61,353 nucleotides of DNA from Deltaproteobacteria bacterium (GTDB lineage Bacteria > Desulfobacterota > Binatia > Binatales > Binataceae): contig JAKAVC010000156.1 of NCBI GenBank assembly GCA_021817345.1, positions 1-61,353 on the forward strand, read 5' to 3'. The position numbers and the translations under genes are program-made. Under the pieces are notes generated by a model. The model saw only the letters and a list, made by a program, of their open reading frames with translations, did not search any database and had not been told where the DNA came from. Shown piece after piece: positions 36,953-55,426 of this stretch. Position 1 is the first letter of the stretch; each line of letters begins with the position of its first letter.

Positions 36953-37948
36953 ATGTCCAACGAGAGGACCGAAGTCCATACCCCGCTCGACAGCATCTTT
37001 CACTGGAACTACGAGGTTAAGTTTCCCCAGATCGATCGCCTGTACGAAAACGCCAAGCGCGATCAGTGGAACGGCAGCACGACGCTCAACTGGGAGCAGC
37101 CGATCGAGCGCGAAGTGCTCGACATGTCGCAGATGCCGATGTTCCAGACCGAGATTTATCGCTCGCTGAGCGCCGGGAAGAAGGAAGAGCTCGCGCGCAA
37201 GTTCGCGGCCTGGCGGCTCTCGCAATTCCTGCACGGAGAGCAGGGCGCGCTGATGGTGTGCGGGCAACTGGTCGACGCGGTGCCCGACCTCGATTCCAAG
37301 ATGTGCGCCGCCGCGCAGGTGATGGACGAGGCGCGCCACGTCGAGGTCTTCCGCCGCTACATCACCAAGCTCGACAAGATCTATCCGATCGATCCGACGC
37401 TCGACCGTCTGCTGCGCACCGTGATAGAGGCCGAGCGATGGGAGCCGAAGTACGTCGGGATGCAGATTGTCGCCGAGGGGCTTGCGATCGCGGCCTTCCG
37501 CTTCATGCAGCGCGAGTCAAACGACGCGCTGCTGAAGGAGCTTCTCGAATACGTGCTCAAGGACGAATCGCGCCACGTCGGTTTCGGCGTGCTCGCGCTT
37601 CGCGACGCGGTGCAGAAACTCTCCGGCAAGGACAAGAAGGAGCTCGAGGAGTTCGCGTTTGCCGCGTGCGACATGATGGTCACGAAGATCGTTGACGGCG
37701 AGCCGAAGGACGGATTCCTCTCGGGCGTTTCGGTGTTCGAGGAGGTCGGCATCTCAAGCGGCGATATCGAAGAGGAGATGAAGCGCAATCCCCAGTGGGC
37801 CGCCGCCGAGCAGGACATGGAGCGCAAGTTCAACTCTTTCCTGTTCGTCGACACGATCGTGCCCAACCTGAAGCATCTCGATCTGCTCAACCAGCGCACC
37901 GAACCGTGGTATCGCGAACTCGGAGTACTCGACATGTACGCGGGCTGA
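36953..37948 (+). CDS. AurF/R2-like diiron protein (ferritin-like fold)
   Basis: 331 aa. Two copies of the diiron signature are exact: Glu of LHGEQ then 28 residues then DEARH, and Glu of VAEGL then 28 residues then DESRH. This EX28DExRH pair is the pattern of AurF-type N-oxygenases and ribonucleotide-reductase-R2-like oxidases, so an O2-using oxidase or oxygenase is likely; the substrate is unknown. GGAGG precedes the ATG. It is coupled to the upstream TetR gene and ends at a strong terminator. Confidence 0.85.
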   Translation: MSNERTEVHTPLDSIFHWNYEVKFPQIDRLYENAKRDQWNGSTTLNWEQPIEREVLDMSQMPMFQTEIYRSLSAGKKEELARKFAAWRLSQFLHGEQGALMVCGQLVDAVPDLDSKMCAAAQVMDEARHVEVFRRYITKLDKIYPIDPTLDRLLRTVIEAERWEPKYVGMQIVAEGLAIAAFRFMQRESNDALLKELLEYVLKDESRHVGFGVLALRDAVQKLSGKDKKELEEFAFAACDMMVTKIVDGEPKDGFLSGVSVFEEVGISSGDIEEEMKRNPQWAAAEQDMERKFNSFLFVDTIVPNLKHLDLLNQRTEPWYRELGVLDMYAG

Positions 37949-42789: not shown

Positions 42790-43869
42790 TTAGGTGGGCA
42801 ATTCGGTTGGAATCGCGAGCCGGTCAGCGCGGTCGATTCCCGCCATCTTCAGCCGGTGCAGATACTCGGTTATCTGTTTCTTGAAGAGGAAGCGCATCTT
42901 CTTGAAGCCCTCGTCGATATGCTCGATTCCGCCGCCGGCCAGGATTGCGCGCGCCTCGATCGTGTCGCGGGTCTGGTTGAGGTTGAAAGTCGCCTCCTCG
43001 CCGCGCTGCAGGATGTCGTGGATCTCGGATTCGCGCTCGGGATGCTTTTCCAGGAAATACTTGAGATGCATCGTGCCGTAGGCGACGTGGCGCGCCTCGT
43101 CCTGCATGCAGAGCCGGAAGATCTTCTTCTCGACCGGCGTCAGCGAAAACATCTCGCCGTTTCGGAACAGCGTGAGCACAAATCCCTCGCCAAGGATGTG
43201 CATCAATGCGCTTCCGACCGTGAAGTTCGGCGCCTCGATTATCAGCCGCAATCCTTCTTCCGAACTCTTTGACGAGCGCAAGAGGCCGCCGCCGTTGGCC
43301 AGCGCGCGCTTGCGGAAAACCTCCATGTGGCGCGCCTCGTCGAAGATCTGCGAGGCGAGGAACAATTTTACTTCGTGGAAGTCATGGTTGATTCGCCACA
43401 TCCACTTGGCCGGCATGTCGCCCGCGATGAATTCGATCTCGGCCAGGTTGGTGCACACCTGGCACATGGCTTTTTCCAAATCCTCAGGCTGAGGGGTCAA
43501 CTGATCCCAGGGAATGTCGCGCGCCGAGCTCCATTGCCGCGCCACCGCCTCATCGTAAAGGTGCGCAACGTTCTCGGCCCATACGGTGGACTTGTCGTCG
43601 ATGTCGTAACATCCGAGCGCTGGCAGATCGTCCGGGACATTCGAGCCGCGCGGCGCCATGCTTCCGTGCTTGCCGCCCCGCTCCGGCACTTCGCCGTATC
43701 GGCCTACGCGGTTGATGTCCTCCAGGCAGAGTCCGCGTTCGTCACGCGGTGTGGCCTTGACGCCCCATCCGGATGGATTGGAGTTCATCCAGCTCAGATC
43801 GAGCTTACCCCGGCTGACCTCGTTGACGTTCTCCAACGCTTCTTCGACACCCGGACTGACTCGTGCCAT
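42790..43869 (-). CDS. AurF/R2-like diiron protein, leftward paralogue
   Basis: 359 aa from ATG 43869 (GGGGAG upstream); an in-frame extension to 44037 runs through the promoter region and is rejected. Two diiron motifs are clear: IEFIAGD with its Glu, 30 residues, DEARH; then GEGFVL with its Glu, 28 residues, DEARH. The N-terminus carries a family-specific segment (LDLSWMNSNPSGWGVKATPRDERGL overview; LGCYDIDDKS) absent from the 36953 protein. By eye it is over 70% identical to the divergently encoded protein at 44276. It probably uses O2 on an unknown substrate. A -24/-12-like promoter lies 42-57 bases upstream. Confidence 0.85.
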   Translation of the reverse strand: MARVSPGVEEALENVNEVSRGKLDLSWMNSNPSGWGVKATPRDERGLCLEDINRVGRYGEVPERGGKHGSMAPRGSNVPDDLPALGCYDIDDKSTVWAENVAHLYDEAVARQWSSARDIPWDQLTPQPEDLEKAMCQVCTNLAEIEFIAGDMPAKWMWRINHDFHEVKLFLASQIFDEARHMEVFRKRALANGGGLLRSSKSSEEGLRLIIEAPNFTVGSALMHILGEGFVLTLFRNGEMFSLTPVEKKIFRLCMQDEARHVAYGTMHLKYFLEKHPERESEIHDILQRGEEATFNLNQTRDTIEARAILAGGGIEHIDEGFKKMRFLFKKQITEYLHRLKMAGIDRADRLAIPTELPT

Positions 43870-43910
43870 GAGCGAACTCTCCCCACTGGCGATTCTGATG
43901 CTGCGCTGCG

Positions 43911-43926
43911 AGCATTTGCCATGCCA
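43911..43926 (-). promoter_or_regulatory. Candidate sigma-54 promoter for the leftward diiron gene
   Basis: Minus strand TGGCATGGCAAATGCT: GG at -24 and GC at -12 with exact spacing of the TGGCAC-N5-TTGC consensus (T to A at the first base of the -12 half). The predicted transcript start is about 30 bases before the ATG at 43869. Confidence 0.55.
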
Positions 43927-44216
43927 TTGCCGGTCTCCGAAAAATAGCGCGATACGGCGAAAGAAATTTCTTCGCCAAGCGGTGCGCCTGGCGCGCGAAT
44001 CGGTCGCGCAAAGCGGAAGCCGCGGCTGGGAATTCACATGGAAATATCGGGCAGATGTGGCGATCCGATTCTGTATCCGAAGGACGCGATTGAATCCTTT
44101 GGAAGCAAAAGAGGAAGCGGCCGTCGTCGTCCCAAAGGCTCTTTTTTGACAGCGTGTGTGATTTTCCGAGCCATGTTATCCGCCTTTCAACAGGCGATGC
44201 CCGATGGCCGACGCAC

Positions 44217-44232
44217 TGGCATGAGGGGTGCT
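44217..44232 (+). promoter_or_regulatory. Candidate sigma-54 promoter for the rightward diiron gene
   Basis: TGGCATGAGGGGTGCT: GG and GC elements with the same spacing as the oppositely oriented copy at 43911-43926, sharing TGGCATG and TGCT. The predicted start is about 33 bases before the ATG at 44276. Confidence 0.55.
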
Positions 44233-44275
44233 CCCTAACGGGCGTAAGGTTGCCATCACGGGGAGGCTTGGCTAG

Positions 44276-45355
44276 ATGCAACATTATAGTCCTGCGGTCG
44301 AGAGGGTCCTCGACCACATGAGCGAGGTCAGGGGCGGAAAACTTGACCTTAGCTGGATGAATTCCAACCCCGGGGGCTGGGGTGTCAGGGCGACGCCGCG
44401 TGACGAGCGTGGACTCGGGCTCGAAGACCTGAACCAGGTCGGAATTTACGGAGAGGTGCCCGATCACGGCGGCGAGCATGGCAGCATGGCGCCGCGCGGC
44501 GCCGAAGTGCCCGCCGACACGCCGGCGCTCGGATGCTACGACATCAACGACAAGTCCCTCGTATGGGCCGATAACGTCGCGCTTCTATACGACGAGGCGG
44601 TCGCGCGCCAGTGGAGTTCCGCGCGCGACGTTCCGTGGGACAAGCTGAAGCCACTGCCGGACGATCTGGAAAAGGCCATGTGCCAGTTGTGCACGGGCCT
44701 TACCGAAGTCGAGTTCATCGCCGGCGACATGCCGGCCAAGTGGATGTGGCACATCAACCACGACTTCCACGAGGTCAAATGTTTTCTCGCGACCCAGATA
44801 GCCGATGAGGCGCGTCATCTCGAAGTCTTCCGCAAGCGCGCCCTTGCCAACGGCGGCGGCCTGCTCAAGGCCTCACCCGGCTCCGAGCAGCTTCTGCGCG
44901 CGATTATCGAGGCGCCGGATTACACCACGGCCAGTTCGCTGATGCATATCCTGGCCGAGGGCTTCGTGCTCACGCTGTTCCGCAACGGCGAGATGCTCGC
45001 GCTGAGCGAGGTCGAGAAGAAGATCTTCCGGCTCTGCATGCAGGACGAGGCGCGCCACGTCGCCTACGGCACGATGCATCTCAAGTACTTTCTCGAAAAG
45101 CATCCGGAACGCGCCGAGGACATCCATGAGATTCTGCGCCACGGCGAAGAGGCGATCTTCGGCCTGAGCATGGAGCCGCAGACCTCCGAGCCGCGCGCGA
45201 TACTGGCCGGCGGCGGCGTCGATCACATCTTCGAGGGCATGGCGAAGCTCGGTTATCTTTACACCAAGCAGGTGCGCGAGTACCTGCATCGGCTCAAAGT
45301 CGCGGGGCTTGATCGCTCGTCGCGGCTTGCGATCCCGCTGGAGTTGCCGAGCTGA
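44276..45355 (+). CDS. AurF/R2-like diiron protein, rightward paralogue
   Basis: 359 aa, same length as its divergent neighbour. The EX30DEARH (VEFIAGD ... IADEARH) and EX28DEARH (LAEGFVL ... MQDEARH) motifs supply a full diiron site. The N-terminal segment LDLSWMNSNPGGWGVRATPRD is nearly identical in both paralogues. GGGGAGG precedes the ATG. It heads a rightward group with an SCP2-like gene 26 bp downstream, then a hemerythrin-like gene and SBP56. An oxidase or oxygenase role is inferred from the metal site; the physiological substrate is unknown. Confidence 0.87.
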   Translation: MQHYSPAVERVLDHMSEVRGGKLDLSWMNSNPGGWGVRATPRDERGLGLEDLNQVGIYGEVPDHGGEHGSMAPRGAEVPADTPALGCYDINDKSLVWADNVALLYDEAVARQWSSARDVPWDKLKPLPDDLEKAMCQLCTGLTEVEFIAGDMPAKWMWHINHDFHEVKCFLATQIADEARHLEVFRKRALANGGGLLKASPGSEQLLRAIIEAPDYTTASSLMHILAEGFVLTLFRNGEMLALSEVEKKIFRLCMQDEARHVAYGTMHLKYFLEKHPERAEDIHEILRHGEEAIFGLSMEPQTSEPRAILAGGGVDHIFEGMAKLGYLYTKQVREYLHRLKVAGLDRSSRLAIPLELPS

Positions 45356-45381
45356 GCGCACGGCATAGGAGGACTGGGGCA

Positions 45382-45846
45382 ATGCTGTTTCCATCGGTTG
45401 AGTGGTTTCAGGCGCTGTGCAACGCGGCCAACGCGAATCCCGAGCGCTTTCGCAGGCTTGGCACTGTGGACCTCGTCCTGGTAGCCAAAATCGATTATCC
45501 GCATCAGAGCAGGCTGTTCGAAATCGTATTCTCCGGCTATCACTGCGCCGGCGTGCGCGAAGTATCGAGCACCAGGGCGGCGCGCGAGGGCGCGGTCATT
45601 CTCGAAGGCCCGTTCGAGGCGTGGAAAGAGATGGTCGCCAACATCAAGGCCAACGGACAGGCGGACCTCGCCCATACGCTCAATACCCTCACGCTTTACG
45701 ACACCCCGATGCGTGTTTGGGCCGAGAGCCAGCTCGATACCGACCTGTTCTACCGTTACCAGCAGAATCTGCAGGAGTTCTTCGACTCGGCATCGCATTT
45801 CGAAACCGAATTCGCCGGACCGGAGGCCACTTCGGTGTATAATTGA
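45382..45846 (+). CDS. SCP2 sterol-binding-like domain protein
   Basis: 154 aa, no signal peptide. The pattern LFPSVEWFQALCNAANANPERFRRLG followed by alternating strands (DLVLVAKIDYP, LFEIVFSGYHCAGVREV), GAVILEGPFEAWKEMV and a C-terminal helix pair reads like a small SCP2 lipid-binding fold. AGGAGG lies upstream of the ATG, 26 bp after the diiron gene, so it is probably cotranscribed. It may bind a hydrophobic substrate or product of the diiron enzyme; that is inference. Confidence 0.65.
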   Translation: MLFPSVEWFQALCNAANANPERFRRLGTVDLVLVAKIDYPHQSRLFEIVFSGYHCAGVREVSSTRAAREGAVILEGPFEAWKEMVANIKANGQADLAHTLNTLTLYDTPMRVWAESQLDTDLFYRYQQNLQEFFDSASHFETEFAGPEATSVYN

Positions 45847-45904
45847 ACGCACGGGGGGTTTTCGCCGCTCGACAGGGGCAATCGAGCGCGAGGGAGTGAG
45901 AGCC

Positions 45905-46465
45905 ATGCGCGCAGCCCGTAGTAATGTCGTCAAACGCGCCCCGCGCGGGGCCAAAACTGCGTCACGGCGAAAGACCCCAGGCGCGCCGCCCGGCGAGATC
46001 AAGCGCCTGGTCGAAAAGCTCTCAATGGAGGATCTGAAGCTCAGCCTCCCGCTGCTCAACGCGGCGGTTTCGGGTGTGATCCTGGGCTTCAACCCCGAAG
46101 ACGCCCAGATGCGCCGGCTCGCCGCGAGATCCTGGAAACGGATCAAACCGCTGCTGTCGCGCCATCTGATGAGCGAGGACGAAAACGTCATTCCGTGGGC
46201 GGAAACGCAGCGCGAGTTTTCGCGCGCCAAGGTGGAGAAATTCAAAAAGCGCCACGAGGAACTGCGCTCGCTCGTGCAGACGATCAACTCCGTTGACTTC
46301 GAGGCCGGCGAACGCGCCGACGTCTCGCGCGCGGGAAAGGCGCTTTGCCGGCTCGCTGTGAGGCTCGACGATTTGATCGAGGGTGAGGAACGCGAACTGT
46401 TCCCGATGCTCAGGCGATTTGTGATGGTTAAGGAGCAGCCGGTGGAAGAGAGTTCGGGCTGCTGA
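45905..46465 (+). CDS. Hemerythrin-like (HHE-type) protein
   Basis: 186 aa from ATG 45905 (GAGGGAG upstream). A basic N-terminal 30 residues (KRAPRGAKTASRRK) precede a helical bundle. Metal-ligand candidates: His-x3-Glu in RHLMSEDENVIPW, His in FKKRHEELR, and LDDLIEGEERELFPML at the end, as in the HHE family. The first His of canonical hemerythrins is not obvious, so iron binding is uncertain. Position between SCP2-like and SBP56 genes suggests a role in O2 or redox handling for the cluster. Confidence 0.6.
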   Translation: MRAARSNVVKRAPRGAKTASRRKTPGAPPGEIKRLVEKLSMEDLKLSLPLLNAAVSGVILGFNPEDAQMRRLAARSWKRIKPLLSRHLMSEDENVIPWAETQREFSRAKVEKFKKRHEELRSLVQTINSVDFEAGERADVSRAGKALCRLAVRLDDLIEGEERELFPMLRRFVMVKEQPVEESSGC

Positions 46466-46826
46466 GCGAAAGGCTTCCCGCGACGGACGCGCCGCCGGCC
46501 GGCGGTTTCGCAACGGGCGCCATCTGAAGACGCGCCATCCTCCTGGGGAGAGCACGGCTCGAAGGTTTCGGGCCATGCTTTTTTACACGAGTCCCGCGTG
46601 CCGGGACAACCTCACCGATGTTCAAGCGGCGAGTTTCCGATTCCTATCGCGCACAAGCGTGGATGAGCGCGAAATGAATCACGCCGAATGGTTAGCGCGA
46701 AAGACGCCTGCCGAAAGAAATACGCAGCCACGTTAAGGCAGAATCAGGCAAACTCCAGCTTCGCATGGGGGGTGCAATCTTGTAACGTAACAGCGCAGTT
46801 CTTCCAGGGAAGTGAGGTAACAAGCC
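46466..46826. other. 361-bp gene-free stretch before the SBP56 gene
   Basis: No gene is supported. GTAACGTAAC (in TTGTAACGTAACAG, near 46783-46796) and a third GTAAC shortly before the start at 46827 form short direct repeats; TGTAACGTAACA is also nearly palindromic and could be a regulator site. No known riboswitch was recognised. Confidence 0.45.
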
Positions 46827-48218
46827 ATGGCGCTTTGGAAACCCGATCCTACCTTTTATCCGTCGTCACGGATGGCGACGGCTGCGCCGCCCGAAACGCT
46901 CGCGTACATCGTCGCGCTGAATCCGACTCCGTCGAACGGAAGGCATGACGCACTATGCGTGCTGGACCTCGATCCGAAATCGAGCACCTACGGAAGGCTG
47001 GTCGGGCAGGTCGAGATGCCGAACGTGGGCGACGAGCTTCATCATTTTGGCTGGAACGCATGCAGCGCCGCGCTCTGTCCCTACGCCCCTCATCCTCATG
47101 TTGAACGCCGATACCTGCTGGTGCCGGGGCTTCGCTCGTCGCGCATCCATGTGATCGATACCAAGCCCGATCCGCGCAATCCGCGTATCGTGCGCGTGAT
47201 CGAGGCCGAGGAGATCGCCTCGCGCGCCGGTTACAGCCGCCCGCATACCATTCATTGCGGCCCCGACGCGATTTACGTAAGCGCGCTCGGAGCGCCGAAC
47301 GGCGAAGGCCCGGGCGGAATCTTCCTGCTCGACTGCGAGACCTTCGACGTGCTTGGGCGATGGGAAATCGATCGCGGGCCGCAGTATTTCGCTTACGATT
47401 TCTGGTGGAACCTGGGCCACGACGTCCTGGTAACGAGCGAATGGGGCACGCCCAACATGTTCGAGAAAGGGCTTGTTCCCGAACTGCTGCTCGGCGAGAA
47501 ATACGGACGCGCCGTCCATGTCTGGGATCTCAAGCGGCGCACCCATGTCCGCAAACTCGACGCGGGCGAAGGCTATCAGCTCGTCTTCGAGCTAAGGCCG
47601 GCGCACGATCCGACCAAGGCCTACGGCTTCGTAAACTGCGTGCTCTCGACAAAAGACCTTTCGGGCTCGATCTGGGTCTGGCACCGCGCGAACGGCGACT
47701 GGACGATGAAGAAGATCATCGACATCCCGGCCGAGCCGGCCTCTGAAGACCAGCTCCCACCGATGCTCAAGGGATTCAAGGCGGTGCCGCCTCTTCCGAC
47801 CGATATCAACCTGAGCCTTGATGACCGTTTCCTTTACGTCTCGTGCTGGGGCACGGGCGACATGAAGCAGTACGACCTAAGCGATCCGTTTAATCCGAAG
47901 CTGACCGGCTCGGTGCGTCTCGGCGGCATCGTATCCCACGCGCCGCATCCGAAGTCAGGGCCGCTTAACGGCGCGATGCAGATGGTCGAAGTCAGCCGCG
48001 ACGGCAGACGGATATACGTCAGCAACTCGCTCTACAGCGCGATCGACGAGCAGTTCTATCCCGAAGGAATCAAGGGATGGGTTGCGAAGCTCGACGCAAA
48101 TCCGTCGGGCGGGCTCGCGCTCGATCCGAACTTCCTGGTCCAGTTCGAGCATCTGCGACCGCATCAGATTCGCCTGGAGGGCGGCGACTGCTCGTCTGAT
48201 TCGTTCTGCTATCCGTGA
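46827..48218 (+). CDS. Selenium-binding protein family (SBP56 / methanethiol oxidase)
   Basis: 463 aa, normal length. Diagnostic runs: GWNACSAALCPYAPHPH with the conserved Cys, RRYLLVPGLRSSRIHVIDTKPDPRNP, YSRPHTIHCGPDAIYVSALG, FLLDCETF, and FAYDFWWNLGHDVLVTSEWGTP with His and Trp residues seen in methanethiol oxidases. MtoX-type members oxidise methanethiol to formaldehyde, H2S and H2O2 and are copper proteins. Here no signal peptide is seen, so the location may be cytoplasmic. Its stop overlaps the next gene start (GTGA). Confidence 0.93.
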   Translation: MALWKPDPTFYPSSRMATAAPPETLAYIVALNPTPSNGRHDALCVLDLDPKSSTYGRLVGQVEMPNVGDELHHFGWNACSAALCPYAPHPHVERRYLLVPGLRSSRIHVIDTKPDPRNPRIVRVIEAEEIASRAGYSRPHTIHCGPDAIYVSALGAPNGEGPGGIFLLDCETFDVLGRWEIDRGPQYFAYDFWWNLGHDVLVTSEWGTPNMFEKGLVPELLLGEKYGRAVHVWDLKRRTHVRKLDAGEGYQLVFELRPAHDPTKAYGFVNCVLSTKDLSGSIWVWHRANGDWTMKKIIDIPAEPASEDQLPPMLKGFKAVPPLPTDINLSLDDRFLYVSCWGTGDMKQYDLSDPFNPKLTGSVRLGGIVSHAPHPKSGPLNGAMQMVEVSRDGRRIYVSNSLYSAIDEQFYPEGIKGWVAKLDANPSGGLALDPNFLVQFEHLRPHQIRLEGGDCSSDSFCYP

Positions 48219-48862
48219 TCGCCGAGTGGCCGTGGATCGTGGTCGCACTGCTCGGTGCGTACCACGGTCTGGACCCCTCGATGGGATGGCTGTTCGCGGT
48301 GGCGCTGGGCCTGCAGGAGCGGCGGCGCTCCAAGGTTGTGTGGGCGCTTGTGCCGATCGCGCTCGGCCATCTCGCTTCAATTGCAATCGTCGTTGCGCTG
48401 GTGGGAGGGCTTCGCCTGGCCGGGCCGCTTGAAACCTGCCTTCGTCCGGCGGGAGCGATTGCGCTTATCCTGTTCGGGGTGTTCCGCTTCCTGTGGCCGC
48501 GCGCGCATCCGCGATGGGTCGCGATGCGGGTCAACTCGCTCGAACTCGGGTTGTGGTCGTTCCTGATGGCCTCTGCGCACGGCGCGGGCCTGATGCTGTT
48601 CCCCATCCTGATGGACGTTATGCCGATGAAGGGGCTCGCCATGCGTCATCGCGGACACATGCCGATAATCGCGCACACCGCGCTCGAAGGTCTCGCGGTG
48701 CTGGCGGTGCACACGGCGGCGATGCTGCTGGTGATGGGGACGATAGCGCTGCTGGTGTACGAAAGATTCGGCCTGGCGATCCTGAAGAGCGCGTGGGTGA
48801 ACCTGGATTTCGTGTGGAACGGCGCGCTGATCGCCGCGGGAATAATGTCCTTCTTCGTCTGA
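48215..48862 (+). CDS. Multi-pass membrane protein coupled to SBP56
   Basis: 215 aa from a GTG start overlapping the SBP56 stop by 4 bases. Six hydrophobic segments. ALLGAYHGLDPSMGWLFAVALGLQER near the N-terminus has a His-Gly-Leu and a polar Asn/Asp-Pro pattern loosely like NicO/UreH-type metal transporters, and GHLASIAIVVALVGG, MASAHGAGLMLFPILMDV carry further membrane His residues. It could move a metal or a small sulfur compound for SBP56, which is inference. No named family was assigned. Confidence 0.75.
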   Translation: MIAEWPWIVVALLGAYHGLDPSMGWLFAVALGLQERRRSKVVWALVPIALGHLASIAIVVALVGGLRLAGPLETCLRPAGAIALILFGVFRFLWPRAHPRWVAMRVNSLELGLWSFLMASAHGAGLMLFPILMDVMPMKGLAMRHRGHMPIIAHTALEGLAVLAVHTAAMLLVMGTIALLVYERFGLAILKSAWVNLDFVWNGALIAAGIMSFFV

Positions 48863-48921
48863 AGCGGTCTTTCCTTGCACACCGCCCACCTGTTACGAAA
48901 GCAAACCCTCGACGTATATCA

Positions 48922-48954
48922 TTGTCGATAACTTCGCTCGGATTCCATCGACAA
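48922..48954. repeat. Inverted repeat abutting the tolC-like ribosome binding site
   Basis: TTGTCGAT (48922-48929) and ATCGACAA (48947-48954), 17-base spacer. The right arm touches AAGGAGG of the next gene. Possible operator or a stem that hides the Shine-Dalgarno. Confidence 0.6.
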
Positions 48955-48964
48955 GGAGGCGCAG

Positions 48965-50251
48965 GTGGCCGGATTACATGCAATTCGAATGAAAATGCTC
49001 CGCACGCTCGGCCTCGGCGCCTTCGGGTACGCCCTGATTGCGATTGTGTCAGCGCCATCGGCGGCGGCGGCGACGCTGACGCTTGCCGAAGCGATCAATC
49101 GCGCGCTCGCGCTGGCGCCGACGGTCGCGGCGGCGGCGGCCAACAGTGACTTCAGCCAGGCGCGCGTGCGTGAAATGTATGCACCGTTCCTGCCGAGCGT
49201 ATCGGCGGGAATCGAGTACTACCAGGCGCCCGGATACGCGCAGGTCATCACCAACCGCGGACTTTCGAGCATGCTGCTTACGGCCGATTACACGGCCTTC
49301 GACTTCGGACGGCGGCTCGCGCGTCTTCGAGCGGCGCGCTATGCGAATGAGGCGGCCGTGCTCGGCGTACAAGCCGCGCGCGCGCAAATCGTCTTCGATA
49401 CCAAGACGGCCTACTACGGTCTGTTGCGAGCCCATCGTGCGGCCGCCGAATTACAGGCCAGTCTCGACCGTCTGAACCGTTACGTATCGATCATCGAGAA
49501 TCTTCAACGCACGGGCCGCGCCATCATGAACGACGTCCTGAAGATTCGCACGGCGCGCGACAGCGCCGAACTTGCGCTGGCCGCGGCGGAGGGCCGGCAG
49601 CGTCGCGCGGCCGTGATGCTCGGTTCGTTGATTGGCGACTTCGACCGTTCCGATTTCGAGATCGCAAATGTGCCTGAGCTTTCCCCCGAACCCACGGGCA
49701 GACTGGAATCGAATCCCGCGCTTCGCGCCGCCACACGCGCGGTTGCCGCCGCCGCCGAACAGGTAAAAGCCGCCGAGGCGGCGCGCTACCCAACCTTCAC
49801 GCTTGCGCTTACCAGCGGCTTTCTCGGCGTCGATCCTCCAAGTACGATTAATCATAATCTTGGCGCATCCTACGACGGCGTGGTTTCAGTGCCGGTGTTC
49901 CAGGGCGGTCTTATCTCGGCCCGTGTTGACGAGGCCAAGGCGCGGCAGGCAAGAGCTGTGGCGCAGCGGCGCGAGGCCGAATACCTGCTCAAGTCCAGGC
50001 TCAACGACGCACGATTCAGCTACGAGCAGGCTCGCAAACAGCTTTCGATACTTGACCGCGCGCAACCCACGGCCGACGGCTCCTTCGCGCTTGCGTGGAC
50101 CCGCTTCCTCGGTGGCGGAAATGTGACACTGCTCGAAGTGCTAAGCGATTATCAGCAGGCGGAGCGCCTCAGGCTTGCGCGCTTCGACCAGGACTACGCG
50201 CTGGAGCAGGCCGCCGCGGAGATGGCGCTTTTGTACGGGATGGAGAAGTGA
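48965..50251 (+). CDS. TolC-family outer-membrane efflux protein
   Basis: 428 aa from GTG 48965, with AAGGAGG five bases upstream. A signal peptide (ALIAIVSAPSAAAA) is followed by TLTLAEAINRALALAPTV, the standard OEP start, and two repeats of long helices with the strand segments VSAGIEYYQAP and LALTSGFLGV. YDGVVSVPVFQGGLISARVDEAK is the second-repeat signature. It forms the outer-membrane duct for the RND pump encoded next; its stop overlaps the adaptor start (GTGA). Confidence 0.92.
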   Translation: MAGLHAIRMKMLRTLGLGAFGYALIAIVSAPSAAAATLTLAEAINRALALAPTVAAAAANSDFSQARVREMYAPFLPSVSAGIEYYQAPGYAQVITNRGLSSMLLTADYTAFDFGRRLARLRAARYANEAAVLGVQAARAQIVFDTKTAYYGLLRAHRAAAELQASLDRLNRYVSIIENLQRTGRAIMNDVLKIRTARDSAELALAAAEGRQRRAAVMLGSLIGDFDRSDFEIANVPELSPEPTGRLESNPALRAATRAVAAAAEQVKAAEAARYPTFTLALTSGFLGVDPPSTINHNLGASYDGVVSVPVFQGGLISARVDEAKARQARAVAQRREAEYLLKSRLNDARFSYEQARKQLSILDRAQPTADGSFALAWTRFLGGGNVTLLEVLSDYQQAERLRLARFDQDYALEQAAAEMALLYGMEK

Positions 50252-51258
50252 CCGAAGGACGACTGAATCGAAACCTGATGCGCGTCGCCGCTTTCACGAT
50301 ACTTGCGATCGCCCTGTTCGCGCCGGGATGCGGTGGGCCGGCGGAAGCACCCTCCAAGGGGACGCAAGCCGGGCAACCGCCCGTGCTAGCGGTCACTGTC
50401 GCGCGGGTCGAGACCGCTCCGATTCAAAACACGCTCACGCTGCTCGGAACGACCGTCGCACCACAACACGTTATACTGCGGGCGCCGGCCGCCGGCCGAA
50501 TCGTGCGGCTCAATCTCAAGGTCGGCGACCGCGTGCACAAGGGAGAGGTCGTCGCTTACCTGATCAATCGCGAAATCGAGGCCGCCGAACAGGGCCTTGC
50601 GGTTGCCCAAAAACTTGACCCTAAAGACGCGCCAGCCCTCGCACGCTCGGTCAAGCGTTACTCAAAATCGCGCGGAATCCAGGTCGTCTCGCCCGAAAAC
50701 GGGGTCGTCGCAACCCAGCCGCTCGCGGCCGGACAGACTGTATCGTTCATGGAGCCGATCGTGGACCTGATCGATCCGCGCAGCATCTATATCGAGGCGA
50801 ACGTTCCCGAAGAGGACGTCGCCATGATCACTCCCGGGATGAGGGTAAGCATCACCTCGCCGCTTAAGCCGGGCGTGCGGATGGCGGGGCGAGTCGCCGC
50901 GCTTCTGCCGAGCCTCAATCCGGCAAGCGCCACGTCGCCAATCCGAATCGACTTCGCCGGTTCCACACGTATCGTGCAGGCGGGCGCGCCCGTCGAAGCG
51001 AACGTCGTAACCGAATCCGTCCCTGATGCGGTGGTGATACCGCCGGCCGCGTTGTTTCAGGGCGCGGGCCAAAGGCCTTACGTGTTCGTCGCGGGCGCCG
51101 ACGGCCGCGCCCATCGCACGCCCGTAACGGTCGGGATCCAGACGCCGCGCCTGATACAGGTAACCTCCGGCCTGCGCCCCGGCGAGAGCGTAATCACCTC
51201 GGGAGGTTACGCGCTGTCGGACGGACTGCGCATCGCTGTTGCGCAGGAGCCTGAATGA
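50248..51258 (+). CDS. RND efflux periplasmic adaptor (membrane fusion lipoprotein)
   Basis: 336 aa from GTG 50248 (ATG 50278 is the alternative). The lipobox is LFAPGC, so the adaptor is lipid-anchored. Lipoyl half motifs: TTVAPQHVILRAPAAGRIVRLNLKVGDRV and GVVATQPLAAGQTV. The segment between the two lipoyl halves is short (about 40 residues), so the usual long alpha-hairpin is much reduced. The beta-barrel (IYIEANVPEEDVAMITPGMRV) and membrane-proximal domains follow. ATGA overlap with the RND gene. Confidence 0.9.
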   Translation: MTEGRLNRNLMRVAAFTILAIALFAPGCGGPAEAPSKGTQAGQPPVLAVTVARVETAPIQNTLTLLGTTVAPQHVILRAPAAGRIVRLNLKVGDRVHKGEVVAYLINREIEAAEQGLAVAQKLDPKDAPALARSVKRYSKSRGIQVVSPENGVVATQPLAAGQTVSFMEPIVDLIDPRSIYIEANVPEEDVAMITPGMRVSITSPLKPGVRMAGRVAALLPSLNPASATSPIRIDFAGSTRIVQAGAPVEANVVTESVPDAVVIPPAALFQGAGQRPYVFVAGADGRAHRTPVTVGIQTPRLIQVTSGLRPGESVITSGGYALSDGLRIAVAQEPE

Positions 51259-54200
51259 ACCGCACCTCTTCGACGCTGGCCGTCCTTGCGGTAATCGCCG
51301 CGACCGCGCTCGGCATCCTGCTCGCATTTTCGATCCCGAGCGCGGTGTTTCCCGAGATTACCTTCGACCGCGCGATTATCCTTACCGACGCGGGCAATCT
51401 TCCCGCCGAGCAGGTTCTCGTCTCCGTAACGCGGCCGATCGAGGAGGCCGCTTACGGCGTGGTGGGCGTCACCCTGGTGCGTTCCACGACCACGCGCGGC
51501 GCATCCGAGGTGGACGTCACGTTCGGCGAGCACACCAATCCGCTCACCAGCTATCAGCTTCTGAACGCGGCGCTGGCCGAGGTCAAGAGCCGCCTCCCGC
51601 GGGGAACCTCGGTCGATACACGGCTGCTCACGACCGGCACCTTTCCGATCGTTGACGTAAGTCTGAGTTCGCGCGATCGCACTCTGCCCGAGCTGACCGA
51701 CATCGCCTTTTACGATCTCGTGCCGAGCTTTCACCGGATAGCGGGCGTTTATCGCGTCGAGATCGTCGGCGGCAAATATCGCGAATTCGTGGTGACGCTC
51801 GATCAGGCAAGGATGCTTGCGCACGGGCTCTCGCCGCAGCAGGTCGTGGCCGGACTGGCGCGCGCGAACATCATCGCCTCGCCCGGGCGCATCATCGACG
51901 CGCATCGGATGCTGCTCGCGATCGTCTCGACCGAACTTCATACCGCAAGCCAGATCGCCGCGGTGCCGATTGCCGACGCGGGCGGCCAGCCGGTCCACGT
52001 GCGCGATGTCGCGTCGGTCGGTGTCGGCATCCGCGAGGATTACATCCGAACCGCGAGCGAAAATGGCCCCGCCGTCCTGGTCGGAATCTCGCGCCAGCCG
52101 ACCGGCAATACGGTGCTCATCTCGCGCGAGGCCCGTCGCATCATCGGCCAGTTCCGCGAGCGTTATCCCGACGTCGAATTCTCCTTTTCCTATGATCAGG
52201 CCGGGCTGGTCGTGGAATCCGTCAAAAGCGTGCGCGACGCGATCGTCCTCGGCCTCGTGCTTGCCGTCCTGGTCGTGCTCGCTTTCACCGGAAGCCTGCT
52301 GAGCGCGATTATCGCCGCGGTTGTCGTCCCATGCACGATCGCGATCACGTTCCTTGTGATGAAGGTGGCCGGAATGACCTTCAACATGATGACGCTCGGC
52401 GGTCTCGCAGCGGGCATCGGGCTTTTCATCGACGACGCAATCGTCATGATCGAGGCGATCCATCGCGCGCACGCGGGCGGAATCGGCACCGAGGACGCGA
52501 TTCCGCTCGCGCTTGCGGAACTGAAGCGCCCGCTGATCGCTTCGACCGCGACCGTGATCGTCGTCTTCGCGCCGCTGGTGCTGCTCTCCGGGGTGACCGG
52601 CGTTTTCTTCCGTGCGCTTGCGGTGACGCTCGGCGCGGGCCTGGCGATTTCACTCATCGTAGCGCTCTATTTCACTCCGGCGCTCGAGGTTTTCGTCGCG
52701 CGATTGCGCCGTCCGGGCCGGGAACCCGGCGCCTTCTTCGATGTCATCCGCCGCGCCTATGCGGGGCTCGCATGGCCTTTCATGCGCGCCCCCGTCCTCT
52801 CGCTAGCGCTCGCCGTGGCGTCGGTCGCGGGCGGCTACGCCCTCTATCGCACCGTCGGGACCGATTACCTTCCGAAGCTCGACGAAGGCGCCTTCGTCCT
52901 CGATTACACCACGCCGCCCGAGAGTTCCCTTCACGACACCCAGGCGCTGCTCGCGAAGATCCAGCACGTTCTGAAAACCACGCCCGAAGTCGCCGCCTTC
53001 TCGCGCCGCACCGGCACTCAACTCGGTTTCTTCGTGACCGAGTCGAACCGCGGCGACTTTTCCGTGCGTCTCAAGCCCAACCGCACGCGCAGCATCTATC
53101 GCGTCATCGACAGCGTGCGCGCGCGCGTCCTGCACAACGTTCCCGGCGTGACTGTCGAGTTCTCGCAGATGCTCCAGGATCTGATCGGCGATTTGTCGGG
53201 CACGCCGGAGCCGATCGAGGTCAAGGTGTTCGGTTCAGACGAGAACACAATCGAAGCGACCGCGCGCCAGGTCGCCGCCAGGCTTCGCCAAATCCCGGGC
53301 CTGGTGGACGTCTTCGACGGGATCGTGCTGAGCAGCCCCGAGGAAAAGGTGATCGTCAATCAGACCCAGGCCCAGCGCTACGGAATTTCGCCCGCCGACG
53401 TGTATGCCGCCCTGCATTGCGTCATCCAGGGAACGGTCGCGACCGACGTCCGCGTGGGAGATCGCCTCTACGGCGTGCGCGTGCGCTACCCCGACCTGTT
53501 CCATAACGATCTGAGCGCGCTCTCCGAGGTAATCCTGAAAACGCCATCCAACGGCCACGTGCCGCTTCCCGTCGTCACCCGGCTCAAGTACCTGGGCGAA
53601 AGGGCGGAACTCGATCGCGAGCGGCTGCGCTCCGTCGTCCACGTCACCGCGCGGCTTTCGGGAATCGATCTCGGAACCGCGATGCATCTGGTGAAGCGCC
53701 GGCTCGGAAGGATGATCCTGCCCGCCGGCGTTACGCTCGAATACGGCGGCCTTTACGCGCAGCAGCAGAAGGCGTTCAGCCAGTTGACGCTCGTGATGAT
53801 CGCGGGCACGGTGGTGATTTTCCTCATCCTGGTATGGGAATTCGGCCGGCTCGGCCCGGCCGTCGCATGCCTTGTCGCGGCGCTCGCGTCGCTTGCGGGA
53901 AGTTTCGCGGGGCTCTCGATGACAGGGATAACGCTCAACATTTCGTCCTTCATGGGCATCATCATGGTCGCCGGCATCACGGCCAAGAACGGGATCCTGC
54001 TGCTCGATCGCGCGGAGCACGCGATCGGAATCGGTTCGACGCCGCGCGAGGCGCTGCTTCATGCGGCGGAGATTCGGCTGCGACCGATAATGATGACGAC
54101 GCTTGCGACCGCCGCGGGGCTTGCGCCGCTTGCGATGGGAATCGGCGCGGGCGCGAAGGTTCAACAGCCGCTTGCGATCGCGGTGATCGGAGGATTGGTG

Positions 54201-54311
54201 TTCGCGATGCTATTATCGACGCCGATAGCGGGCGGCATCTATCTTCTGACGACGCGAGGGCGCGCGGCCGCTCCGAGGCCCGACGACGAAATCGACGACC
54301 TCCGCGACTGA
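51255..54311 (+). CDS. RND-family efflux permease
   Basis: 1018 aa, about 12 TM helices with two large periplasmic loops. TM1 is LAVLAVIAATALGILLAFS; TM4 holds GGLAAGIGLFIDDAIVMIEAIHRA, where the paired Asp residues carry protons. The C-terminal half has GTDYLPKLDEGAFVLDYTTPPESS and ISSFMGIIMVAGITAKNGILLLDRAE. The LDEG motif and overall pattern lie between the heavy-metal (CusA/CzcA) and drug-efflux classes; I cannot name the substrate. It completes a TolC-adaptor-RND operon. Confidence 0.94.
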   Translation: MNRTSSTLAVLAVIAATALGILLAFSIPSAVFPEITFDRAIILTDAGNLPAEQVLVSVTRPIEEAAYGVVGVTLVRSTTTRGASEVDVTFGEHTNPLTSYQLLNAALAEVKSRLPRGTSVDTRLLTTGTFPIVDVSLSSRDRTLPELTDIAFYDLVPSFHRIAGVYRVEIVGGKYREFVVTLDQARMLAHGLSPQQVVAGLARANIIASPGRIIDAHRMLLAIVSTELHTASQIAAVPIADAGGQPVHVRDVASVGVGIREDYIRTASENGPAVLVGISRQPTGNTVLISREARRIIGQFRERYPDVEFSFSYDQAGLVVESVKSVRDAIVLGLVLAVLVVLAFTGSLLSAIIAAVVVPCTIAITFLVMKVAGMTFNMMTLGGLAAGIGLFIDDAIVMIEAIHRAHAGGIGTEDAIPLALAELKRPLIASTATVIVVFAPLVLLSGVTGVFFRALAVTLGAGLAISLIVALYFTPALEVFVARLRRPGREPGAFFDVIRRAYAGLAWPFMRAPVLSLALAVASVAGGYALYRTVGTDYLPKLDEGAFVLDYTTPPESSLHDTQALLAKIQHVLKTTPEVAAFSRRTGTQLGFFVTESNRGDFSVRLKPNRTRSIYRVIDSVRARVLHNVPGVTVEFSQMLQDLIGDLSGTPEPIEVKVFGSDENTIEATARQVAARLRQIPGLVDVFDGIVLSSPEEKVIVNQTQAQRYGISPADVYAALHCVIQGTVATDVRVGDRLYGVRVRYPDLFHNDLSALSEVILKTPSNGHVPLPVVTRLKYLGERAELDRERLRSVVHVTARLSGIDLGTAMHLVKRRLGRMILPAGVTLEYGGLYAQQQKAFSQLTLVMIAGTVVIFLILVWEFGRLGPAVACLVAALASLAGSFAGLSMTGITLNISSFMGIIMVAGITAKNGILLLDRAEHAIGIGSTPREALLHAAEIRLRPIMMTTLATAAGLAPLAMGIGAGAKVQQPLAIAVIGGLVFAMLLSTPIAGGIYLLTTRGRAAAPRPDDEIDDLRD

Positions 54312-54535
54312 CTTCCCGTCGCGCCGGGCGCCTCGCGTCACGGATGCCGCACGAAAAGAGGCAGCATCCGCGCCGCTCGCCACGTTCCGCCGCCGGAATG
54401 ATCGCTTGCCCTTGCGCTACGTCAAGGCACGGCGTCGCTCCATGTTCCGGCGATGGCTTTTTGGATTTGCCGTCCACAACGCAATAGCGTAATCGATCGG
54501 AATAGGCGAGAAACCGGATTCATTCGGAGCAAAAG

Positions 54536-55426
54536 ATGGCGGAACAAGGCGCAAAATACGGTGACCCGAACACGCTGGTGCAGACGGACTGGCTCGCGAC
54601 GCATCTGGACGACTCGGAACTCAGGATCTTCGACTGCACCACATTTCTGCGTCCGGCGCAGGCCGAGGGCGCGCCCTATCAGATCGTCGCCGGCCGGGCG
54701 GAGTACGACGCCGAGCATATTCCCGGCGCTGAATTTCTCGACCTGCAGGGTGAATTGTCCGACAACACTGTGAAGCTGCGCTTCATGCTGCCGAAAGCCG
54801 AGGATTTCGTGGCGGCGATGTCGCGTCATGGCGTCTCCGACGGCTCGAAGGTGATACTGTACAGCGCGGGAGCGATTATGTGGGCGACGCGCGTATGGTG
54901 GATGCTGCGCGCATTCGGGTTCACGAACGCGGCCGTCCTCGACGGCGGATGGGACAAATGGAAAGCCGAAAACAGGCCCGTTTGTTCCGAACCGTGCAAG
55001 TATCCGTCCGCCGCCTTTACCGCCCGGCCACAAGCCGGCCTGTTTGTGGACAAGGAGCGGGTTCGCTCGGCGATCGGCGATTCCAAAACCGTAACCGTCA
55101 ACGCGCTACCGGCCGAATTACACCGCGGCAAAGGACCGAGCCCTTACGGCCGTCCGGGACGAATCCCCGGCAGCGTCAATATCCCGTTCGTCGAACTGGT
55201 TGATCGCAAAACCAGGACCCTGGCGCCGCTTTCCGAATGCGCGGCGAAATTCGAGGCGACGGGAGTTGAGAAATCGAAAGAGGTTATCTGCTACTGCGGC
55301 GGCGGAATCGCGGCAACGCTGGATGTTTTCGTGCTGCACCAGCTCGGCTACCGGAATCTGCGCGTGTATGACGCCTCGATGAGCGAGTGGGCGCGCGACG
55401 AATCGCTGCCGATCGAGACCGACTGA
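54536..55426 (+). CDS. Two-domain sulfurtransferase (thiosulfate/3-mercaptopyruvate type)
   Basis: 296 aa with two rhodanese domains: an inactive N-terminal one (LVQTDWLATHLDDSELRIFDCTTF, EYDAEHIPGAEFLDL) and an active C-terminal one. The catalytic loop is CYCGGGIAA, Cys followed by Tyr, Cys and Gly residues, closer to thiosulfate:cyanide than to mercaptopyruvate (CGSGVTA) enzymes, but not diagnostic. Motif RIPGSVNIPF is conserved. It is flanked by the RND gene tail and a remnant copy of that tail at 55483-55542. Confidence 0.92.
   Translation: MAEQGAKYGDPNTLVQTDWLATHLDDSELRIFDCTTFLRPAQAEGAPYQIVAGRAEYDAEHIPGAEFLDLQGELSDNTVKLRFMLPKAEDFVAAMSRHGVSDGSKVILYSAGAIMWATRVWWMLRAFGFTNAAVLDGGWDKWKAENRPVCSEPCKYPSAAFTARPQAGLFVDKERVRSAIGDSKTVTVNALPAELHRGKGPSPYGRPGRIPGSVNIPFVELVDRKTRTLAPLSECAAKFEATGVEKSKEVICYCGGGIAATLDVFVLHQLGYRNLRVYDASMSEWARDESLPIETD

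Follow-up and report, generated by a model that had tools for sequence, protein, structure and literature searches.

The window, the whole stretch of 61,353 nucleotides analyzed here, contains all five of the rightward open reading frames that an earlier note had placed between positions 44276 and 48862 (Table 1). The first encodes a ferritin-like diiron protein, hereafter Di (DiB for this copy), and is followed by genes for a SCP2-fold partner, a hemerythrin-domain (HHE) protein, a SBP56-family protein, and a multi-pass membrane protein. The last two are joined by a GTGA overlap (48215–48218), as had been stated. DiA, a second Di paralogue transcribed divergently from DiB, had been overlooked, as had an AurF-family ferritin-like protein.

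The SCP2-like gene has an AGGAGG sequence 9 bases upstream of its ATG. Two weak promoter-like matches are found in a scanned region that includes the segment separating DiA and DiB, a number also reached by shuffled sequences. Seven terminator-like hairpins are present in the region, a count not above that of shuffled sequence. The longest, with 8 pairs followed by a T run, is located inside the 361-bp gap before the SBP56 gene and, judging from its sequence, probably marks the end of the first unit.

Table 1. Features of the window discussed in the text.
Feature	Coordinates	Strand	Description
Di (DiB)	44276..45355	+	Ferritin-like diiron protein, 359 aa
SCP2-fold partner gene	45382..45846	+	154 aa, 26 bp 3' of Di
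DiA	42790..43869	-	Second diiron paralogue, divergent from DiB, 74% identical
Region separating divergent DiA/DiB	43870..44275	.	406 bp
HHE (hemerythrin-domain) gene	about 45905..46465	+	58 bp 3' of SCP2-like gene
Terminator-like hairpin and T run	46556..46574	+	Consensus match only
SBP56-family gene	46827..48218	+	Leads a conserved unit distinct from that of Di
Multi-pass membrane protein gene	48215..48862	+	Overlaps SBP56 by GTGA and is part of its unit
AurF-family ferritin-like protein	36953-37948		PF11583 above cut-off
Rhodanese-domain gene	54536-55426		Farther along the SBP56 unit

DiB carries two DEARH sites, at residues 177–181 and 257–261, in agreement with the earlier description. Its putative metal ligands are E146, E178, H181, E228, E258, and H261, all of which are retained in DiA. 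E144 was considered as the helix-1 ligand and rejected in favor of E146, because copies that keep all other ligands lose E144 and keep E146; E146 is therefore the probable ligand on the basis of conservation rather than structure. Alignment columns show a complete ligand set in every readable single-copy Di adjoining a SCP2-like gene (two loci, L062 and L079, are unreadable at these columns, and the single-copy counts include places retrieved twice, from two collections).

The model of Di (pLDDT 90.9) is predicted to form a four-helix bundle with two E-x-x-H motifs and two further carboxylates, the arrangement of a ferritin-like diiron carboxylate protein. The best fold match is the aldehyde-deformylating oxygenase (VIA Z 21.8, 211/220 residues, rmsd 2.2 Å), followed by its palmitate-bound structure 4kvq (21.6), VlmB (20.5), R2lox (19.5), and the MMO hydroxylase (18.9). 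By profile, the best PDB match is VlmB (6d9f/8wvr, E 8e-6). The models thus suggest a ferritin-like diiron enzyme in the neighborhood of aldehyde-deformylating oxygenase, VlmB, and R2lox. Of 34 Di family members, 12 match the AurF model (PF11583) with E values no higher than 0.01, the best being 4e-5; the cut-off of the model is missed by DiA (12.2 of 29.6 bits), DiB not being listed. R2-type and R2lox models appear among the weak sequence matches of Di; the R2lox cut-off (NF006198–NF006202) is missed by both DiB (25.4 of 194 bits) and DiA (23.9 of 194). For PF11266 (Ald_deCOase), no match of DiA or DiB is listed at E up to 1, and for PF02332 (Phenol_Hydrox) none is listed for either of them or, with E limited to 0.01, for any of the 34 family members.

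In a quick tree with some long branches, built from 135 of 151 rows once duplicates, near-copies, and rows whose ligands could not be read had been set aside, DiA clusters with L004–L006 (SH-aLRT 99) and the nearest row to DiB is L002. Since the two copies group separately, an in-situ duplication giving rise to both is not supported. No SCP2-like gene of its own follows DiA; one is present in its closest relatives elsewhere, L004–L006.

Using the diiron protein alone, we located 108 Di loci, the best 80 of which were compared. A SCP2-like homologue lies directly behind Di on the same strand in 79 of these 80, and the 79 coupled loci span at least four phyla. The exception is L029, where the SCP2-like gene is missing. 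Starting from the partner, all 49 SCP2-like matches in 57 relatives adjoin a same-strand Di at a distance of 27–213 bp, and 28 of 31 matches in 24 other genomes are located beside a Di; three Chloroflexota genomes have a SCP2-like gene remote from any Di. Two tandem Di pairs, also from Chloroflexota (G059 and G069), show no SCP2-like gene within the 10–11 kb read. Di and the SCP2-like gene are a conserved unit across phyla. In the literature searched (titles and the openings of abstracts, mostly outside subscription journals), this combination is undescribed.

Apart from the genes of the module itself, the commonest neighbor family is present at 12 of the best 80 of 108 loci, and no conserved metabolic neighbor naming a substrate is found among them. 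Genes of the qNOR type are located near 4 of these 80 loci, and an epoxide hydrolase gene lies near one Di–Di'–SCP2 arrangement (L215), with a similar gene recognized by eye in L216; we regard these as leads only. Plasmids yielded just two distant, partial matches. Matches are carried by the named strains Mycobacterium gordonae, M. nebraskense, and Aciditerrimonas ferrireducens.

The description of the second gene as SCP2-like stands at the level of the predicted fold and finds no support in Pfam. The model (pLDDT 92.7) has the SCP2 structures 1wfr and 2cx7 as top fold matches (Foldseek E 1.5e-5 and 3.4e-5, TM 0.65–0.77), followed by UbiJ-SCP2, and the predicted similarity extends over most of the protein. 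The best PDB profile match is likewise 2cx7, but with an E value of 0.031. None of 38 partner family members matches the Pfam SCP2 model (PF02036), even at E up to 1, so that the partner is a remote SCP2 relative at best, and its predicted fold alone would be no proof of lipid binding. Residues D121, R125, and Q131 are invariant and N101, L103, and F123 nearly so, all in the C-terminal third. A mirror-tree comparison of Di and partner gave a correlation of r 0.56 across 106 pairs, against at most 0.10 after permutation; shared ancestry also contributes to this value, which we do not take as proof of contact.

The remaining three genes, SBP56, membrane protein, and HHE, fail to co-occur with Di, the outcome that the earlier note had itself named as refuting its proposal. 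The SBP56 identification is secure (PF05694, 623 bits against a cut-off of 34). With 107.8 of 650 bits, however, the protein stays far below the cut-off of the methanethiol oxidase (MtoX) equivalog NF052453. No SBP56 or membrane-gene homologue is found at the 80 diiron loci (best 80 of 108, within the sequence available around them). The two genes share a contig in all 26 relatives having both, and among the matches listed for 57 relatives none of their sites outside the window adjoins a Di. SBP56 and the membrane gene are thus a separate conserved unit, and on co-occurrence we reject a single system of SBP56 and diiron protein. The five genes had been presented as one system, with the caveat that the 361-bp gap might divide two units; the caveat was right.

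HHE, identified by PF01814 (37.6 bits, cut-off 25.3), is conserved with neither unit and was rejected as a module member; it is an occasional neighbor. Only one further case near Di is present in the best 80 of 108 loci: at L005, where HHE, an acyl-CoA dehydrogenase-like gene, Di, and SCP2 follow each other on one strand. In 57 relatives, none of 21 HHE matches outside the window shares a contig with a Di match among those listed. As SBP56, HHE, and the membrane protein are not supported as parts of the module, the proposed link between the diiron gene and sulfur-methylated compounds is likewise not supported. The rhodanese-domain gene makes a sulfur-related role possible for the SBP56 unit itself.

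Di loci occur in three layouts. In the more distant branch a ferredoxin gene follows the pair at 56 of 59 loci, and in the branch of the window at none of 21 (best 80 of 108 loci in both counts). All five ferredoxins tested exceed the cut-offs of Fer4 models, and no CxxCxxCxxxC motif is present in the six frames of the window. A ferredoxin gene, in one branch, is the only electron-transfer gene found in Di operons; no adjoining reductase was seen, and one may be encoded at an unlinked site. At nine Mycobacterium loci a second SCP2-like protein recurs 3' of the ferredoxin, and the one tested lies just above the PF02036 cut-off. The third layout contains tandem Di copies, as SCP2–Di–Di' or Di–Di'–SCP2, where one Di keeps all metal ligands and the other does not. 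This holds for 23 of 24 tandem pairs, the 24th being cut by a contig end.

We consider it probable, by a small measure, that the pair constitutes a two-part, O2-using diiron enzyme, whose partner binds and presents a hydrophobic substrate that Di oxidizes. To this extent the earlier suggestion is supported: a module for metal-dependent oxidation, linked with a protein of lipid-binding type, is predicted, and hence a probably hydrophobic substrate. Di, with four carboxylates and two histidines in a four-helix protein, would hold a diiron center and use O2. The partner would most likely bind a hydrophobic substrate, long-chain or polycyclic, and present it to Di, which would hydroxylate, epoxidize, or otherwise oxidize it. 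Electrons would be supplied by the dedicated 4Fe–4S ferredoxin where the operon carries one and, in the branch of the window, by an unlinked donor. In the third layout, a catalytic subunit would probably pair with a metal-free one as a heterodimer. A precedent is provided by the SCP2 domain of UbiJ, to which, according to PMC6747719, the hydrophobic intermediates of ubiquinone bind within a multiprotein complex for its biosynthesis.

The SCP2-fold protein could instead be an effector or structural subunit that docks on Di, tunes O2 activation, and carries no lipid, in which case the substrate could be small or polar, amines included. We regard this as rather unlikely. A partner of ~150 aa fixed beside the catalytic gene does resemble effector proteins, several of its C-terminal residues are invariant, the nearest solved relative of Di by profile is the N-oxygenating VlmB, and tandem catalytic and metal-free copies recall alpha/beta hydroxylases. 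On the other hand, the predicted fold is that of SCP2, whose characterized members bind lipids (as described in PMC6747719), and the highest Z in the fold comparison of Di belongs to an enzyme of long-chain aldehydes, with palmitate bound in 4kvq.

It is improbable that Di, instead of oxygenating a free substrate, works as a R2lox-like oxidase or generates a radical or cofactor, and that the SCP2-like protein serves it as a storage partner: the weak R2-type and R2lox sequence matches and the fold similarity point that way, but Di falls below every curated cut-off, and the dedicated ferredoxin that one branch carries at 56 of 59 loci (best 80 of 108) would imply a repeated electron supply, as O2 turnover would need. 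A single module of all five genes, directed at methylated sulfur compounds or at hydrophobic ones, is highly improbable, since the common strand and order in the window and the rhodanese-domain gene of the SBP56 unit are outweighed by the lack of SBP56 and membrane genes in the sequence available at all 80 diiron loci (best 80 of 108), the location of these genes away from listed Di genes in relatives, the HHE relatives found elsewhere, and the terminator-like hairpin in the gap.

Extending the preferred reading of a substrate-presenting partner, it is quite possible, if short of probable, that the module represents an undescribed class of multicomponent diiron oxygenases, in which Di receives a membrane-derived or polycyclic lipid from a SCP2-fold protein that takes the place of a conventional effector, in at least four phyla including environmental mycobacteria and with a ferredoxin branch and a heterodimer branch. 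Diiron enzymes carry out difficult oxidations, on substrates that are set by their partners. With no Pfam model of its own and a near-constant SCP2-fold partner, the Di family is a clear target in the search for a new oxidation of lipids or hydrocarbons. Its three layouts (ferredoxin, none, and metal-free second subunit) offer a natural comparison of electron supply and complex assembly, and the named strains make the idea testable.

Over some 210 residues, Di has the same ferritin-like diiron fold as the cyanobacterial aldehyde-deformylating oxygenase, whose substrates are long-chain and hydrophobic and whose reductant is ferredoxin. Di differs in having about 125 more N-terminal residues, 12–19% identity, no listed PF11266 match, and a fixed SCP2-like partner. 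The azoxy synthase VlmB and AurF-type N-oxygenases have a similar fold, and VlmB is the best PDB profile match; in contrast, identity is about 20%, the AurF Pfam model stays below its cut-off, no natural-product cluster is seen around Di, and Di has a SCP2-like partner and a ferredoxin. R2lox, which holds a long-chain ligand, resembles Di in fold and ligand pattern, but Di scores 25.4 bits against 194 and is part of a multi-gene module.

Soluble bacterial multicomponent diiron monooxygenases (MMO, phenol hydroxylase) combine a hydroxylase, a small protein, and an iron–sulfur carrier, and pair catalytic with metal-free subunits. The Di module has a small protein and an iron–sulfur carrier, and the subunit pairing in one layout; unlike them, it has no listed PF02332 match for Di, its small protein is of the predicted SCP2 fold, and no adjoining reductase was found. 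With MtoX the likeness is limited to the neighboring gene, a full-length SBP56 family member far below the equivalog cut-off and in a unit separate from Di. UbiJ and UbiT are similar in that a SCP2-fold protein assists the hydroxylation of a hydrophobic substrate (PMC6747719); their partners are flavin or U32-type hydroxylases, whereas here the partner is a ferritin-like diiron protein encoded in an operon of two or three genes.

The diiron gene and the gene behind it form a real, conserved unit. The DiB protein (DiB and DiA are the window's two copies of the ferritin-like diiron family, here Di) was searched alone against one genome per species (84,980 species), giving 108 relatives, the best 80 of which were retained as loci. 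In 79 of these best 80 of 108, a homologue of the window's second, SCP2-like gene lies directly 3' of Di on the same strand; at the sole exception, locus L029, the N-terminal stub of a second diiron copy occupies its expected place. By NCBI names, the best 80 of 108 belong to Actinomycetota (47), Myxococcota (17), Pseudomonadota (7), Chloroflexota (7) and Candidatus Binatota (1), with one given no name; the majority are metagenome assemblies, and Mycobacterium contributes nine. Searching in the other direction gives an equally strong result: a second-family profile found 49 places in 57 related genomes, all 27–213 bp from a same-strand diiron gene. In 24 genomes reached via other loci, 28 of 31 second-family matches adjoin Di, as judged by eye from coordinates. 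The other three are each a second copy in a Chloroflexota-type genome; two of these genomes also carry tandem diiron pairs, and the 10–11 kb read around one pair of each contains no SCP2-like gene.

An earlier note had read five window genes as one candidate system, allowing that they might be two units. All five open reading frames are present as it described, and among their proteins only HHE and SBP56 exceed a Pfam cut-off, the first, second and fifth matching no Pfam family at that level. The coupling of Di to the second gene holds, but SBP56 and the membrane-protein gene are a separate pair and relatives of HHE lie elsewhere. Of the 57 relatives, 32 have SBP56 (E up to 1e-3) and 27 have the membrane protein; the 26 genomes with both carry them on one contig in every case, and the two genes adjoin in all 11 SBP56 regions read from other genomes. 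No Di gene was found in these 11 regions; in five of them (L152, L154, L155, L158 and L159) the pair is followed by homologues of the outer-membrane, fusion and RND pump genes of the window. In two related genomes with a window-type module, G010 and G011, SBP56 lies on contigs other than the module's. HHE relatives are present in 16 of the 57 genomes, at other places, and the region's longest terminator-like hairpin falls between HHE and SBP56. The SBP56-to-rhodanese stretch, which is conserved in G001 (L152), a genome of the same genus, is possibly a sulfur-compound unit of its own.

Coordinates of the features discussed
Location	Strand	Feature
Window 36953-37948	+	Third ferritin-like diiron protein, AurF family, above its cut-off (55.2 bits, cut-off 29.6)
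Window 42790-43869	-	DiA
Window 44276-45355	+	DiB
Window 45382-45846	+	SCP2-like partner
Window 46827-55426		SBP56, membrane gene, outer-membrane, fusion, RND pump, then rhodanese-domain gene
L029:7103-7255		Stub of second diiron copy
L064:10108-10515		Second SCP2-like protein, Mycobacterium
L165:5839-8587		Layout (c) in the window's own genome (contig C152): SCP2-like gene, then catalytic and metal-free diiron copies, by ligand residues
L215:11520-12677		Epoxide hydrolase EHN, PF06441, near Di–Di'–SCP2

The module occurs in three layouts. In layout (a), Di–SCP2, that of the window's branch (L002–L022), no ferredoxin motif was found within 1.5 kb behind Di in any of 21 loci; in three of them the sequence available behind Di is shorter than 1.5 kb. 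Layout (b), Di–SCP2–ferredoxin, accounts for 56 of the 59 remaining loci (of the best 80 of 108), and all five ferredoxins tested exceed Fer4 model cut-offs. Outside this count are L029, where sequence stops 597 bp past Di; L048, with a ferredoxin-like match upstream on the opposite strand; and L062, whose ferredoxin was found by tblastn and missed by the motif scan. Layout (c) adds Di', a copy without the full ligand set: among the 57 relatives, SCP2–Di–Di' occurs at 18 places plus one cut, and Di–Di'–SCP2 at 4. One copy with six ligands is paired with one lacking the full set in 23 of 24 pairs read; in the 24th, a contig end cuts the first copy, whose three readable ligands are kept. The L014 pair has complete and degenerate copies in reversed order. 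Judged by sequence, the two copies appear to have divided roles.

Other genes were seen nearby. Four of the 80 loci (L010, L011, L015, L025) have quinol-type nitric oxide reductase-like genes no more than 8 kb from the module, which they follow directly in L010 and L015; of these proteins, the L010 one was compared with Pfam. In L056 (Mycobacterium), putative genes for a hydrogenase and for a DevR-type regulator were picked out by eye next to the module. Near Di–Di'–SCP2 in L215 and L216 there are a short-chain dehydrogenase-like gene and an epoxide hydrolase gene, the latter identified by Pfam in L215 and by eye in L216. In the nine Mycobacterium loci a second SCP2-like protein stands behind the ferredoxin, and the one tested is barely above the PF02036 cut-off.

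DiA and DiB are divergent, 406 bp apart and 74% identical, each with six of six ligands; the earlier note makes no mention of DiA. In a 135-row tree, DiA clusters with L004–L006, which possess their own SCP2-like gene, and DiB is nearest L002. As the two fall in different groups, the window holds two related modules, one without an adjoining SCP2-like gene. A TetR-type regulator gene precedes the AurF-family gene.

DiB falls below all curated family cut-offs tried. Its predicted structure (pLDDT 90.9) is closest to aldehyde-deformylating oxygenase (Z 21.8, 211/220 residues, 2.2 Å), followed by VlmB (Z 20.5), R2lox (Z 19.5) and methane monooxygenase hydroxylase (Z 18.9), with residues 1 to ~105 scarcely spanned. 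The partner model (pLDDT 92.7) first matches the SCP2 structures 1wfr and 2cx7, then UbiJ-SCP2. Its sequence link to SCP2 is weak (top PDB profile match 2cx7, E 0.031), and the Pfam SCP2 model matches none of 38 family members.

Most likely, Di would activate O2 at its diiron centre and oxidise a hydrophobic molecule bound by the SCP2-fold partner, with the layout (b) ferredoxin as likely reductant; we infer both lipid carriage by the partner and its contact with Di. The chief rival makes the partner an effector or structural subunit, in which case the substrate could be something other than a lipid. VlmB is Di's best sequence relative, so N-oxidation is a possible reaction. For oxidation of a partner-bound molecule, UbiJ offers a precedent: PMC6747719 describes its SCP2 domain as binding ubiquinone intermediates inside a multiprotein complex. 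Searches of open-licence papers did not find the combination or its fixed coupling; the module's parts are of known kinds, and it is classed here as a variant of the ferritin-like diiron oxygenases.
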